DNA of 64,000 nt, taken from Marmoricola sp. URHB0036 (GTDB lineage: Bacteria > Actinomycetota > Actinomycetes > Propionibacteriales > Nocardioidaceae). A model generated the notes under the pieces. The model was not told the origin of the DNA, made no database searches, and saw nothing but the letters and a program-made list of their open reading frames with translations. The stretch covers positions 1-64,000 of the forward strand of contig NZ_AUEP01000018.1 in NCBI RefSeq assembly GCF_000426045.1, read 5' to 3'. Position numbers and translations under genes: made by a program. Shown piece by piece: positions 8,603-33,584 of this stretch; within the stretch, counting starts at the first letter, position 1, and every line of letters starts with the position of its first letter.

Positions 8603-10566
8603 CAGACATCCACCTTCGCGAGCTTGGACATCCAGAAGATGCCGACGGACAACAGGGCCCCCATGACGATCAGCAGGATCCAGCCGATCGGAGTCGTGTA
8701 CATCACGCGCACGTAGTCGGGCCTGGTGACGGCCAGGTAGACCATGAAGGCGGGCGGCAGGCCGCCGAGGATGTAGCAGGAGAGGCGGCCTTCGGCCGAC
8801 AGCGCACGGACGTGACGGCGCAGGAACTCGCGCTCACGCAGGGTGGCGGCCACGGTGAGCAGGAGCTCAGCCAGGTTGCCGCCCACCTCGCGCTGGATGC
8901 GGATGGCCATCACGACCCAGCCGAAGTCACGACTCTGCATCCGCTCGGCGACGCCCTCCATCGAGTCCTCGAGGGTGACCCCGAGGCGGGTCTCCACGAC
9001 GACGCGGCGGAACTCGCTGGCGATGGGGTCGACACCCTCGCGCACGATCGTGTCGATCGACTGCGCCAGCGACAGTCCGGCCGAGAGGCTGCCCGACATC
9101 AGCTGCAGCGTGTCGGGCAAGGCCGTGGCGAAGGCCTTCAGCCGTTTGGCGGCCTTGACCCGGAGGTAGATCGGGGGCGCGACCAGCACAGCGACCACGA
9201 GCAGGATGCCCAGGACGAGGTTGCCGGCGCCGATCAGGATCCCGAGGAGACCGCCGGCCACGCCGATTCCGGCCCGGAACAGCAGCCACTCGGCCGGTCG
9301 CAGGTCAACACCGGCGGATTCCAGGGCGGCAGCGAGTTTCGCCTCGTAGTTCTTGTTGTTGGCCAGCGCCTTCTCGGCGGCCTGACGGGCCTGACCGGCG
9401 AGGGGAGTAGGACCGGCGTCGTCGCGGCGCGGCCCGGCCTGGCCCGGGACCGACATCACGCCGTAGGCCTGGATCTGCTCGGACAGGGTGAGGTTCTGGG
9501 CGGGCTTGTTGCCCCCGATCGCCAGGACGCCGACGAGACCGAGCAGGCCGACGCCGATGGCGCCGACGGCTCCGAGGACGACGTTGCGCGAGACGGTGAG
9601 CGGACCGGCCTTGACCGGCTGTGGAGCCGCCGCTGCCGCCTGCTCGGCGGCGATGTCGGCAGCGGTGCGCACCGGGACGTACGCCGACGCGGTGTACGCC
9701 TGGCTGTCCGTCGGCACCGTCACGTCGACGTTGGAGCTGGTCTCCCGGAAGCTCGTGGGGACCTGGGCTGTCACCACGATCTGACGAGCGAGGGCTGCGG
9801 CCTCGCTGGCGAAGGCGGTCGAGAGGGCGGCGGGGTCTGCGGTGGTGAAGACCTTGCCCTTGCCGGCGCTCGCCATCGCCTCGAGGGGCTGGTTGGCGTC
9901 GCCCTGCTGGAGGGAGACCACGTCGACGCCGACGCCGGACGCCTTGATCGCGTCGAGCACGTCGGTGAGGTTGGTCGCGGTGGTGTCCTCTCCGTCGGAC
10001 AGGACCAGGATCTTGCGCTGGCCGGAGTCCGCGCCCCCGGGACCGGCGGCCTTGATGGCGCCGAGCACCCCGTCGTACAGCGCCGTGTGCAGGGTGAGGG
10101 TCAGCTCCCCGATGGCCCGGGTCGCCGCTGCCCGGTCCAGCGTCGGGGCGACCAACGTCTTGACGGAGTCGTCGAAGCTGACGACACCCACCTTCACGTT
10201 GTCGGGGACGCTGGCGAGGTAGGCCAGTGCGGCCTTCTTGGCCTCCGCGATGCGGGGGCCCTTCATGCTGTTGCTGGTGTCGATGGCCAGGATCGAGGTG
10301 CGTTCCACGTTCGTCGTCGAGGCCGCGACGGCCTCGGAGCCGACGGTGGTGCCGTCGATCTCGACCCCGACCTTGTCGTAGTCGACCGGGTCGGTGCCGG
10401 GCACCGACACGAGCAGCCGCACGGCGCCCTTGGTCGGCTGGGCGTGGTCGATCACCGCGGTGTCGTCGGCCGCCGATGCGGGCGACGACGCGAGCAGCGC
10501 GAAGGAGACCAGGCCCAGGAACAGGGCCAGGACGGTCGCGGTGACGCGGTGGACGGTGCGAGTCAT
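8602..10566 (-). CDS. tadB: TadB platform protein fused to a secreted von Willebrand A domain
   Basis: A 654-aa fusion, about twice the usual TadB length. Residues 1-33 are a signal peptide ending in ASA. Residues 90-270 form a VWA domain with the full MIDAS signature DTSNS at 96-100 and a later SDGED. A TM near 345-370 leads to a cytoplasmic linker, then TM pairs around 440-475 and a T2SSF domain (about 480-610, PDTLQLMSG). The VWA part would sit outside the membrane and could bind the pilus, peptidoglycan or a surface, while the T2SSF part works with TadC and CpaF. The start overlaps the cpaF stop (ATGA). There is no frameshift: it is one continuous frame. Confidence 0.9.
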   Translation of the reverse strand: MTRTVHRVTATVLALFLGLVSFALLASSPASAADDTAVIDHAQPTKGAVRLLVSVPGTDPVDYDKVGVEIDGTTVGSEAVAASTTNVERTSILAIDTSNSMKGPRIAEAKKAALAYLASVPDNVKVGVVSFDDSVKTLVAPTLDRAAATRAIGELTLTLHTALYDGVLGAIKAAGPGGADSGQRKILVLSDGEDTTATNLTDVLDAIKASGVGVDVVSLQQGDANQPLEAMASAGKGKVFTTADPAALSTAFASEAAALARQIVVTAQVPTSFRETSSNVDVTVPTDSQAYTASAYVPVRTAADIAAEQAAAAAPQPVKAGPLTVSRNVVLGAVGAIGVGLLGLVGVLAIGGNKPAQNLTLSEQIQAYGVMSVPGQAGPRRDDAGPTPLAGQARQAAEKALANNKNYEAKLAAALESAGVDLRPAEWLLFRAGIGVAGGLLGILIGAGNLVLGILLVVAVLVAPPIYLRVKAAKRLKAFATALPDTLQLMSGSLSAGLSLAQSIDTIVREGVDPIASEFRRVVVETRLGVTLEDSMEGVAERMQSRDFGWVVMAIRIQREVGGNLAELLLTVAATLREREFLRRHVRALSAEGRLSCYILGGLPPAFMVYLAVTRPDYVRVMYTTPIGWILLIVMGALLSVGIFWMSKLAKVDV

Positions 10567-26115: not shown

Positions 26116-26421
26116 ATGGGCCAGGGAACGTTGCTGTTCCGCGCATCGCTCGGTGACGTGCTGAGGGCCGAGCGGATGCGTCAGGGAATGACCCTGCGCG
26201 AGCTCTCGTCGTCCGCCCGGGTCAGCCTCGGGTACATCTCCGAGATCGAGCGCGGCCAGAAGGAAGCCTCCTCCGAGCTCCTCGCCGCCCTCTGCGAAGC
26301 CCTCGACGTCCCCCTGTCCGGCGTACTCCGCGAGGTCAGCGACCAGGTCGCCGACGAGGAGCTCGCCCTCGAGGCCCTCCAGCCGCCCGCCCCGGGTGGG
26401 GTTGTCGCGTCGGCCGCGTAG
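26116..26421 (+). CDS. clgR: ClgR-type XRE transcriptional regulator
   Basis: A 101-aa HTH_3 protein: [24 protein letters not shown] and [20 protein letters not shown] form the two halves of the helix-turn-helix (residues 9-62), identical in style to ClgR of actinobacteria, which activates clp protease and stress genes. The C-terminus ends in VVASAA; a terminal Ala-Ala is the signal by which ClgR proteins are recognised by ClpP proteases, so it is probably self-limiting through proteolysis. ATG 26116 with ribosome-binding site GGAGAAGGAG. Composite repeat A begins 8 bp after its stop. Confidence 0.88.
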
Positions 26422-26429
26422 AGGACAGG

Positions 26430-26488
26430 GTTTCCCCGGACGTCCGGGGAAACTGAGGGCTGGCAGGCAAAGTTTGGTGCGCCAGCCC
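26430..26488. repeat. Composite repeat copy A (24-nt palindrome, 3-nt spacer, 32-nt hairpin)
   Basis: 26430-26453 is a perfect 24-nt palindrome with half-site GTTTCCCCGGAC. After TGA comes a 32-nt hairpin (26457-26488): 8-bp stem GGGCTGGC/GCCAGCCC around a 16-nt loop AGGCAAAGTTTGGTGC. It lies between the convergent ends of clgR and the DUF559 gene. The palindrome is identical to that of copy B on the far side of the DUF559 gene; see also copy C at 33499-33584. Confidence 0.85.
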
Positions 26489-26522
26489 GGAAGGTCGGCT
26501 GCCAACCTTGGTGGATTTGTTG

Positions 26523-27476
26523 TCAGACGTGGACGGGGCCACCGGCCAGGGCCGACATGATGCGGGCGATCATCTGTTCGGGTTGATACAGGTCGGCCCA
26601 GGTGATCCGAATACATCGCCAGCCGGTGAGACCGCAGATCCGCTCCTCGCGCTTCTTCTCGCGAAGAATGGCGTCCAGCGGCTTCTCGCCCGGGCGAAGG
26701 TACTTGAGGTACTTCTCCTTCCCGTCGAACTCGAGGAAGACACCCAGCTCAGGCCAGGCGAAGTCGAGCCGGGCCAGCAACTTTCCGGCGGCATCGCAAA
26801 TGTCGTAACCGGTCTTCGGTGCGGGCACGCCATGGCGCCAGAGCTTGTAGGACGTTCGTGACTCGCCGACCGATTCGCAGCGTGGGTTGGCCAGGCGGAT
26901 GACGAGGTCAGTCGTCAGGGTGTCCTTCCACAGACGCATGGCCTCGGCTCCCTCCCGGAGATTCGCCTTGGTCGTTGCGCCGACATGCAGAAAGTGGTCG
27001 ACGACGGCGAGACTGTGCTCGACGTCCAGAATTCGCGTCACATCGAGTGCCGTTCGGGTCGGGGACGTGACGCTGAGTGAGTCGAGTTCGACGATGTCTC
27101 GGGGGACCAGCAGCCCCCGATGCTGCACGAGTCCGGCCTCTGAGCGCCCACCCCTGCGGTCGGTGCGCGTCACGTGCACCATGTCGAGTGGAAGCTCCCA
27201 GGTTGGCGCACCGTGCAGGACAACCGCGGTGACGTGAGAGAAGACCAGGTTGGTCTTTGCGGTGCGCAGGGCTGCCATGGCACGCACGATGTGCCGTTCA
27301 TCGCCGGGCAGCGGATCCCACAGCTCCCGGAAGAAGTAGGACCCGTGTCGTACGCGTGTCAGGACCCCACGTCGGACGGCGCGTGCCAAGTGCTCATCGG
27401 TGTAGCCGAGGGCAATCGCTTCGTGCCGCAGGAAGATCCCATGTGTGTCGCAGATCTGGCGAAGTTCGTCGTACAT
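26523..27476 (-). CDS. AbiEi-like wHTH plus DUF559 (Vsr/PD-(D/E)XK-fold) protein
   Basis: A 317-aa two-part protein. Residues 1-50 resemble the AbiEi antitoxin winged helix (GYTDEHLARAVRRGVLTRV); residues 195-300 are DUF559-like, related in fold to Vsr nucleases, with candidate catalytic residues Glu205, Asp238 (RLDFAW) and the EFDGK motif (Glu249, Asp251, Lys253). The middle (residues 75-190) matches the common AbiEi-C-like link. No toxin or methylase neighbour is present. The gene is visibly less GC-rich than its neighbours and is bracketed by repeats A and B, both signs of a mobile or transferred unit. Nuclease activity is inferred only. Confidence 0.85.
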   Translation of the reverse strand: MYDELRQICDTHGIFLRHEAIALGYTDEHLARAVRRGVLTRVRHGSYFFRELWDPLPGDERHIVRAMAALRTAKTNLVFSHVTAVVLHGAPTWELPLDMVHVTRTDRRGGRSEAGLVQHRGLLVPRDIVELDSLSVTSPTRTALDVTRILDVEHSLAVVDHFLHVGATTKANLREGAEAMRLWKDTLTTDLVIRLANPRCESVGESRTSYKLWRHGVPAPKTGYDICDAAGKLLARLDFAWPELGVFLEFDGKEKYLKYLRPGEKPLDAILREKKREERICGLTGWRCIRITWADLYQPEQMIARIMSALAGGPVHV

Positions 27477-27594
27477 GCGGTGAGGGTGTGCCAGGTCCGT
27501 GGCGCCGCGCGCGGCTCGTCATCCGAGCTGTGGAGCGCACCGCCGTGGTCGCCTCTGTGGACGCGAAATGGTCAGAGCTGGCAGGCAGTCTTGT

Positions 27595-27653
27595 GGGCTG
27601 GCAGGCGAAGTATTGCCCGCCAGCCCTGGGTTTCCCCGGACGTCCGGGGAAAC
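27595..27653. repeat. Composite repeat copy B (32-nt hairpin, 3-nt spacer, 24-nt palindrome)
   Basis: 27595-27626 is a 32-nt hairpin with the same 8-bp stem as copy A and loop AGGCGAAGTATTGCCC; after TGG comes the 24-nt palindrome (27630-27653), identical to that of copy A. The hairpin has the same orientation as in A but the palindrome is on the opposite side, so the DUF559 gene is bracketed P-H...H-P. A half-unit GCTGGCAGGCA precedes it at 27577. It lies 18 bp past the stop of the WS/DGAT gene. Confidence 0.85.
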
Positions 27654-27671: not shown

Positions 27672-29078
27672 CTACGCCACCCCCGCCGCCTTCTCCAGCG
27701 CACCCAGCTCGTCATCGAGGTGGGTGAGCAGGCGCTGGAGGTGGGGGACGCTGCGGCGGCAGCCGGTGAGGCCGAAGTCCATGTCGTCGGCGTAGCTGTT
27801 GCAGGTGATGTTCAGGGCCATGCCGTTGATCGGGATCGACAGCGGGTAGGTGCCGGTCATCCTGGCGCCGTTGAGGTACTGCACCGAGCGGGGGCCGGGC
27901 ACGTTGCTGATGATCAGGTTGAACGGCGGGCGGATGATGCCGTGCAGGCGCAGCATCGGCGTGACGATCGACGGGGCCATGCCCAGGGCGCTCATCGCCA
28001 TGATCTGCAGCTGGGTCATCGAGCCGAGCGCCTCCTTGCCGGTCTTCATCGACCCGTGGATCGCAGCGAGCCGGTCGGCCGGGTCGTGCAGCTCGGTGCC
28101 GAGCTTGACCATCACCGCACCGACCGCGTTGCCGCCCTCGCCGGAGGCCGACTGCGACTGCTTCGCGTTCAGGCCCACCGGCACCATCGAGACGAGCCCC
28201 GAGTCCGGCAGGGCGTCGTGCTCGATGAGGTAGGTACGGATCGCGCCGGAGCACATCGCGAGCACCACGTCGTTCAGGGTCGTCCCGCTGGCCTTGCCGA
28301 TCGCGCGCAGCCGCTCGATCGGCCAGCCCTGCGCGGCGAAGCGACGCGAGCCGGTGATGGTGGTGTTGAACATCGTGCGCGGGGCGTAGAGCGAGAGGGC
28401 CGACGTCTCGTTCTTCAGGCCGCTCCTCAGGGTCTTGACCAGGGCCGCGGGCAGTCCGGCGGCGTCGGCGGTGATGCCGAGCGCCGTACGCATGGCGTCG
28501 AGGGGTACGGCGGCCAAGCTGTGCTCGGCCTCGTCACGGGCCTTCTCGGTCTTCTTGCCGGGCCGGGCCGCCCACATCGCGGGCATGTCGCGCTTGTCGG
28601 GGTCGGTGGTCATCACGCTCTGCAACAGCCGCATCGCGGAGATGCCGTCGACCAGCGAGTGGTGCATCTTGGTGTAGAGCGCCACCCGCCCGTCGCGCAT
28701 GCCCTCGATCAGGTGCGCCTCCCACAACGGCCGCTCGCGGGCCAGACGAGTGCTGTGCAGCCGCGAGCACAGCTCGAGCAGCTCGCGGACGCGACCCGGC
28801 TTGGGCAGGGCGCTGTGCCGGAAGTGGTACTCGAGGTCGAAGGCGTCGTCCTGCGTCCAGGCCCACTGGCCGGCAGTGGTGATGCCGCGGGTCGGCCGCT
28901 TGAGGAACAGCGGCGCCATCTCCTCGACCTCGGACATCTGCTCGTAGATCTGACGCACGTAGTCGCGCGGAGCGCCCTCGGGCTTCTCGAAGAGCTGCAG
29001 GCCACCGACGTGCATCGGCATCTGCCGGTTCTCGGCGTACAGGAACGCCGCCGACGTCGGATCCATCGGAACTGCCAC
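27672..29078 (-). CDS. Wax ester synthase / diacylglycerol acyltransferase (WS/DGAT)
   Basis: A 468-aa enzyme of the actinobacterial WS/DGAT family, which makes triacylglycerol or wax esters from acyl-CoA. The N-terminal MDPTSAAFLYAE block, the catalytic HHSLVDG (HHxxxDG, near residue 140), the ND-type block GTTLNDVVLAMCSGA and the PxxxNIxISNVPGP-like block LIISNVPGP near 370 are all present. GTG 29078 has GAGAGGGGG upstream; an ATG four codons later is an alternative. It is divergent from the GMC oxidoreductase. Confidence 0.93.
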   Translation of the reverse strand: MAVPMDPTSAAFLYAENRQMPMHVGGLQLFEKPEGAPRDYVRQIYEQMSEVEEMAPLFLKRPTRGITTAGQWAWTQDDAFDLEYHFRHSALPKPGRVRELLELCSRLHSTRLARERPLWEAHLIEGMRDGRVALYTKMHHSLVDGISAMRLLQSVMTTDPDKRDMPAMWAARPGKKTEKARDEAEHSLAAVPLDAMRTALGITADAAGLPAALVKTLRSGLKNETSALSLYAPRTMFNTTITGSRRFAAQGWPIERLRAIGKASGTTLNDVVLAMCSGAIRTYLIEHDALPDSGLVSMVPVGLNAKQSQSASGEGGNAVGAVMVKLGTELHDPADRLAAIHGSMKTGKEALGSMTQLQIMAMSALGMAPSIVTPMLRLHGIIRPPFNLIISNVPGPRSVQYLNGARMTGTYPLSIPINGMALNITCNSYADDMDFGLTGCRRSVPHLQRLLTHLDDELGALEKAAGVA

Positions 29079-33463: not shown

Positions 33464-33499
33464 GGTGGTCGCATTGGTGGTCGCTTTGGTGGTCCGTGG
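33464..33499. repeat. Three 12-bp tandem repeats
   Basis: GGTGGTCGCATT, GGTGGTCGCTTT and a degenerate GGTGGTCCGTGG run in tandem immediately before composite repeat C, in the convergent gap after the FUSC gene. Confidence 0.6.
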
Positions 33500-33584
33500 T
33501 TTGGCCGGGCGCCCGGCCAAACTGTCAGTGGAGGGGTGAAACATCGCGCCTCCACTGAACAGATGGCCGGGCGCCTGGCCAAAC
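33499..33584. repeat. Composite repeat copy C (palindrome-hairpin-degenerate palindrome)
   Basis: 33499-33522 is a perfect 24-nt palindrome with half-site GTTTGGCCGGGC; TGT; a 32-nt hairpin 33526-33557 (9-bp stem CAGTGGAGG/CCTCCACTG); AAC; then a degenerate 24-nt palindrome 33561-33584 (AGATGGCCGGGC then GCCTGGCCAAAC). Geometry is 24-3-32-3-24. Relative to A and B the palindrome keeps GTTT..CCGG.CG.CCGG..AAAC while the differing bases change in complementary pairs. It lies between convergent unrelated genes. Confidence 0.85.

Follow-up and report, generated by a model that had tools for sequence, protein, structure and literature searches.

A gene for an AbiEi- and Vsr-like protein between palindrome-hairpin ends: a candidate family of actinobacterial mobile elements

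Architecture of the locus

The window, by which we mean the whole 64,000-nucleotide stretch analysed here (contig NZ_AUEP01000018.1 of Marmoricola sp. URHB0036), contains a 1,224-bp unit at 26430–27653 on the minus strand, which lies between an XRE/HTH gene (26116–26421, plus strand) and a convergent gene for a WS/DGAT acyltransferase (27672–29078, minus strand). These two genes, which are kept beside each other in relatives, are the left and right neighbours of the target site. The unit has the order P-H-gene-H-P and is delimited as a whole by empty orthologous sites in relatives and by the anatomy that its homologues share.

At the left edge stands a terminal palindrome, P (GTTTCCCCGGACGTCCGGGGAAAC, 26430–26453), followed by a hairpin, H (stem GGGCTGGC..GCCAGCCC, 26457–26488), whose pairing register is that of dispersed copies in which H covaries, and by a distal end segment (TCGGCTGCCAACC..TTTGTTG, 26489–26522) that alignment identifies as homologous to the inner end of dispersed 93-bp elements. 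The gene (26523–27476, minus strand) encodes a 317-amino-acid protein with predicted AbiEi-type N-terminal DNA-binding and middle domains (residues 1–200) and a predicted Vsr/I-Bth0305I-like nuclease domain (residues 200–317). On the right, the distal end segment placed by alignment consists of the half-hairpin GAGCTGGCAGGC plus GACGCGAAAT with a TTTGTC-like inner end (27561–27594), and is followed by the right H (27595–27626), established by direct reading, alignment and covariation, and by a terminal P with the same letters as the left one (27630–27653). Both palindromes are read directly and supported by genome and window counts, the chance expectation in the window being 0 matches at up to 3 mismatches.

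The original prediction, made from the letters of this DNA, described identical palindromes, a shared hairpin stem and 3-nt spacers, and direct reading bears out all three: the spacers are TGA and TGG, and the left (GGGCTGGCAGGC..GCGCCAGCCC) and right (GGGCTGGCAGGC..CCGCCAGCCC) hairpins have a common stem and different loops. Its description of a gene bracketed by a pair of P-H elements likewise stands; the palindrome, however, forms the outermost portion of an end sequence that is 93 bp long and in which a distal half-hairpin sits inside of H. P starts with GTTTCCCC, and the bases outside it are TAGGGGCGGCG, with stop codons at −11.

Dispersed gene-less copies

P occurs at 57 sites with up to 3 mismatches in the 4.83-Mb genome, compared with 0 for a reversed control pattern, and the 93-bp repeat that ends in P is dispersed about 50 times in intergenic DNA. 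Thirty-five sequences around solo copies (solos) of both GTTTCCCC-type palindromes align gap-free over 93 columns in the order P (24), 3 nt, H (32) and a distal half-hairpin with NTTTGTC close to its end. The alignment, across which P is nearly invariant, takes in both ends of the unit in the window. H varies on both of its sides with pairing kept, giving 45 double-change cells against 24 (s.d. 3.8) after shuffling and at most 18 after sliding, a signal for part of which two subfamilies account. Compact P-H-P elements with a 62-nt spacing are also present in the genome, measuring 86 bp where P-H measures 93 bp. A search of Rfam returned no RNA family (best E value 0.85).

The solos are intergenic, with P often 8 nt past a stop codon, at which position TAG outnumbers TGA by 9 to 3; nine P sites fall inside ORFs as predicted by a crude composition method, all of them close to an ORF end. 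Mobile activity may be low or past, because the solos of this genome are old, with a mean identity of 66% outside P.

The encoded protein

AbiEi_4 is the only Pfam match of the 317-residue protein, and the DUF559 profile matches just 2 of 31 homologues. Since a search of the genome with Pfam DUF559 (PF04480) gave no match at E ≤ 0.001, the family was traced by protein and alignment searches. Searching solved structures by sequence likewise yielded nothing meaningful for this protein, and a fold search was therefore required. An AlphaFold2 model built with the 31 homologues as input has a mean pLDDT of 94. In this predicted structure, residues 1–200 resemble the AbiEi antitoxin fold (6y8q, Z 11.1; Rv2827c, 1zel, Z 9.8), while residues ~200–317 resemble the catalytic domain of I-Bth0305I (3r3p, Z 9.2, rmsd 2.6, 96 of 97 residues) and, with a Z of 7.7, Vsr. 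These two folds account for the whole chain, and no transposase of the DDE, HUH, serine or tyrosine class was found in it. The protein had been proposed to be a DUF559 protein with a Vsr-like fold; the structural model clearly shows the Vsr-like nuclease domain, but the family label is not returned by Pfam, where AbiEi_4 alone is matched.

Five residues, E205, D238, E249, D251 and K255, are invariant among the 31 homologues, so that four of the five positions named in the original prediction are retained and the fifth, given there as K253, is corrected to K255. The catalytic pattern, with E249-x-D251 followed by K255, departs from the exact EDxHD set: D251 and K255 stand in place of the HD pair, and the histidine is absent. 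By analogy with AbiEi and Rv2827c, which bind 23-bp inverted repeats (PMC7319586), we can fairly infer that the front AbiEi-type module binds H or P.

Flanking ends among homologues and paralogues

To follow the ends across relatives we denote this genome G000, relatives' genomes G003, G008, G009 and so on, and loci by L numbers. Of 90 homologous genes (80 from named loci, the other 10 from the genomes analysed), 75 have matching inverted flanks, taken as an inverted match between left and right that scores above 20; the same holds for only 2 of 217 control genes, which were neighbours in the same loci. This is the enrichment around genes of the family that had been put forward as a check on the first reading; about one sixth of the homologues are without a flanking repeat. 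For 40 units an automatic search recovered one and the same palindrome core on either side, with little variation in distance, P typically lying 150–220 nt upstream of the start and 60–95 nt after the stop. Across these 40 units palindrome distance tracks protein distance (Mantel r 0.39, p 2e-4, with shared ancestry not removed), and distant relatives in other genera and orders likewise have inverted ends of 60–104 bp.

The abundance of P also follows the gene. With a P pattern derived partly from these same genomes, 10–55 copies were counted in seven of seven genomes that hold a homologue at least 47% identical, whereas the other 51 genomes have 0–1 copies in all but one, which has at least 10.

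Each paralogue examined pairs with its own P-H, as seen for two genes in G000, for three homologous genes with three palindromes in G003, and in G008, which has two genes. The second G000 gene (C4:198781), 55% identical to the window protein, is bracketed by the palindrome GTTTGGCCGGGCGCCCGGCC(A/G)AAC and the hairpin CAGTGGAGG..CCTCCACTG. Gene-less P-H-P copies of this sister type are dispersed, and one mini-element lies in the window at 33499–33584, with GTTTGGCCGGGCGCCCGGCCAAAC as P and CAGTGGAGG..CCTCCACTG as H.

Further genes were encountered in the same searches. A third, distant G000 homologue (31%; L213, C4:131547–132257) stands within an inverted end of another kind, built up of ~35-nt repeats of the CCGACCGGGCAGTTCTGGTTGGCAGC type. 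Two tandem distant homologues lie at G000:C7:54223–56049 (L215, L216), where no flanking repeats were detectable and the script-chosen ORF may be off. In G003 a secreted metalloprotease-like gene stands between two P copies (L081:7852–9104, equivalent to G003:C1:12851–14103), and G000 lacks this block at the orthologous position (L045), which raises the possibility of passenger capture.

Empty sites, insertion and replacement

Ten relatives have −4 to 40 nt between the HTH and WS/DGAT genes, and three more have up to 152 nt; in this genome the distance is 1,250 nt, and 1,224 of these run from P to P. The comparison of empty with filled sites that had been called for thus shows the junction to lack the unit in most relatives. 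A second locus, between tilS and an LLM gene, contains a unit in G003, G008 and G009, while the two genes abut or overlap in G017, G012 and G002. The possibility that the G003 unit (2475781) occupies a different site from the G008 and G009 units was rejected by comparison of the flanks, which places all three at the same locus. Solo P-H and P-H-P elements similarly differ by presence and absence at orthologous places of G000 and G003. No target-site duplication is evident at either the HTH-WS or the tilS-LLM junction, the empty sites there having diverged too far for a short one to be recognised. At the empty tilS-LLM sites (L221, L222) the overlapping convergent stop codons form TCAGCTGA, and at the filled ones, in G003 and G009, the terminal palindrome directly adjoins the stop codon of tilS.

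Of 76 units, 46 are situated between convergent genes, an arrangement seen in 29 of 225 background gene pairs. A search for a vehicle gave four distant plasmid matches and 0 phage matches, and no carrier was found among them.

Resident units are also replaced, with the edges of replacement at P. Between G008 and G009 the flanks are 93–96% identical, and identity drops on reaching the left P and is restored at the right P. At fourfold sites the unit is 48% identical, which is near saturation, while the neighbouring genes are 82–86% identical. Fast protein evolution is the explanation put forward for the analogous pattern of RAYT genes by those who described it (PMC2817692); here, positive selection as the sole cause is rejected, since saturation at fourfold sites is seen in the unit but not in its neighbours, and same-site replacement by a diverged unit would account for the G008/G009 pattern better than fast protein evolution does. 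Similar identity profiles were obtained for L107/L108, L110/L143 and L104/L113; in other pairs, such as L148/L160, the unit was simply inherited.

A model for mobility and its alternatives

We consider it probable that the block belongs to an undescribed family of mobile elements and that the nuclease it encodes mobilises it. Its ends would be the ~93-bp inverted sequences, composed of the terminal perfect palindrome P, then H, then a half-hairpin, and its sole protein an AbiEi-type DNA-binding module joined to a Vsr/EDxHD-like nuclease domain. In this model the AbiEi module would bind the H/P end sequences of its own unit, and probably autoregulate its own gene, while the nuclease would cut at P or close by. 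Repair could then insert either the cut unit or a copy of its end into short convergent-gene junctions or, alternatively, put it in the place of a resident unit. The P-H (93 bp) and P-H-P (86 bp) elements that lack a gene would be non-autonomous derivatives spread in trans. The first reading of the ~1.2-kb block as a possible mobile unit is thus supported by the empty sites and the flank pairing, and its loose analogy to RAYT-REP pairs holds for the anatomy, the cognate dispersed copies and the co-divergence; as for the protein acting on the elements, we infer that it binds and cuts the end sequences and drives mobility.

A rival explanation is a homing or gene-conversion cassette, in which the nuclease would cut the corresponding site, whether this is an empty junction or one occupied by a rival unit, and the whole unit would be copied in by repair from a homologous chromosome, with no transposition and with solos that are decayed remains or were spread otherwise. 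The nearest catalytic domain is indeed that of a homing endonuclease, I-Bth0305I, sister species keep the locus yet swap in diverged units with edges at P, and no target-site duplication is obvious. We nevertheless regard homing as unlikely, as it leaves unexplained the ~50 end copies with the same P-H at unrelated intergenic places, as well as the paralogous units that one genome carries at several loci whose flanks differ (for example, L106, L108 and L109).

Less likely still is a domesticated regulator or chromosome organiser, for which P-H would be binding sites at gene ends and mobility a thing of the past. An AbiEi-like module, solos directly after stop codons, the old divergence of those solos, and the presence of one copy per subfamily kept long at its locus are what such a function would leave, but the nuclease residues are invariant, and the history of insertion and replacement and the lineage-specific repeats speak against it.

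It is highly improbable that what stands on both sides of the gene is a set of ordinary transcription terminators, or of REP repeats, placed around a cargo gene by chance. Although the elements occur at gene 3′ ends and their hairpins are GC-rich, their sequences are specific to genome and gene subfamily, P marks the edge of insertions and replacements, and a reading as terminators alone is ruled out by flank bracketing far above controls (75/90 versus 2/217), by the paralogue-specific pairs and by P itself, at which no T-run terminator was found. We give practically no credence to REP elements that a RAYT transposase of the HUH type moves and that carry the DUF559-type gene along as a passenger, despite an anatomy like that of REP/REPIN/RAYT, because Y1_Tnp (RAYT/IS200) had 0 matches in this genome, estimated to be 100% complete, and 34 relatives while control genomes were positive, which confirms the absence of an HUH transposase noted at the outset and rejects RAYT as the mobiliser.

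Relation to known systems

The described system closest in way of life is that of RAYT (TnpA-REP) genes and REP/REPIN elements (PMC2817692). As there, a single-copy gene is bracketed by inverted palindromic repeats that are also dispersed between genes as solos and pairs; each gene has its own repeat, and repeat abundance is tied to gene presence; orthologues hold their locus while the repeats change yet stay palindromic; and the gene is more diverged than its neighbours, with repeats and protein co-diverging. Unlike RAYT, however, the enzyme is an unrelated AbiEi and Vsr-like nuclease rather than an HUH tyrosine transposase, the end is a perfect palindrome with a separate hairpin and without a GTAG/GTGG head at the palindrome foot, synonymous-site saturation points to cassette replacement and not only to fast protein evolution, and the units prefer convergent stop junctions.

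With EDxHD homing endonucleases (I-Bth0305I) and Vsr the unit shares the fold of its C-terminal domain and the swapping of units at fixed sites, but it differs in the AbiEi DNA-binding module in front, the inverted ends that flank its gene, the dispersed non-autonomous copies, the lack of an intron or intein, and the replacement of the HD pair by D251..K255. The AbiE type IV toxin-antitoxin systems (AbiEi; Rv2827c) offer the antitoxin fold of residues 1–200 and known members that bind inverted repeats; here, by contrast, the neighbours are the HTH and WS/DGAT genes, with no adjoining AbiEii nucleotidyltransferase toxin gene, a nuclease domain is added, and the inverted repeats stand on both sides and are dispersed. 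Like insertion sequences and MITEs, the unit has one gene within inverted ends of 60–100 bp and gene-less mini-elements that share them, but it lacks a transposase of the DDE, serine or HUH type, shows no evident target-site duplication and is present mostly as one copy per subfamily. Classed by its enzyme, the unit falls outside RAYT and the known insertion sequences; classed by its way of life, RAYT-REP would be the milder label.

In the openly accessible journal papers that were searched we found no report linking DUF559 with palindromes, transposition or inverted repeats and no description of a Vsr-like nuclease with an antitoxin-type module as a mobiliser, and such a mobile system thus appears undescribed in the searchable literature. 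With less assurance than for the block itself, we lean towards a wider reading in which these units are a widespread form of actinobacterial mobile DNA: an AbiEi-guided Vsr-like nuclease would recognise palindrome-hairpin ends, enter or take over convergent stop-codon junctions and spread gene-less end copies in trans, with palindrome specificity changing as the protein changes, so that the RAYT-REP way of life would have been invented twice and independently. If true, this would establish a mobile-element family whose sole enzyme is a Vsr-like nuclease with an antitoxin-type DNA-binding module, and give a concrete role to a large, mostly unannotated gene group now labelled AbiEi antitoxin, DUF559 or hypothetical. 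It might also provide an answer for palindromic repeats without a RAYT, such as the CGTC-tagged REPs described without an associated transposase (PMC3733652). The many natural protein-palindrome pairs make DNA-recognition rules directly testable.

Related repeat families

About half of the G000 solos form a subfamily, P3, in which P has a GCGC centre and H is of its own type (for example, L052:11301–11393); no gene with the exact P3 palindrome was found in this genome. Solo palindromes of GCGC or mixed type also lie near 9950–10050 in L058, L059, L072, L075 and L079, where the inner sequence after P is another, such as CTCGTGTCAC..GTGTGGCACGAG, instead of H, and these may represent another subfamily. 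A hairpin repeat of the GACGTCATACGA(A/G)TTGG..CCA(G)TTCGTATGACGTC type, seen at L045:18700–18860 and L089:5750–6140, lies between convergent genes of G000 and G003 and seems to be another family of repeats.
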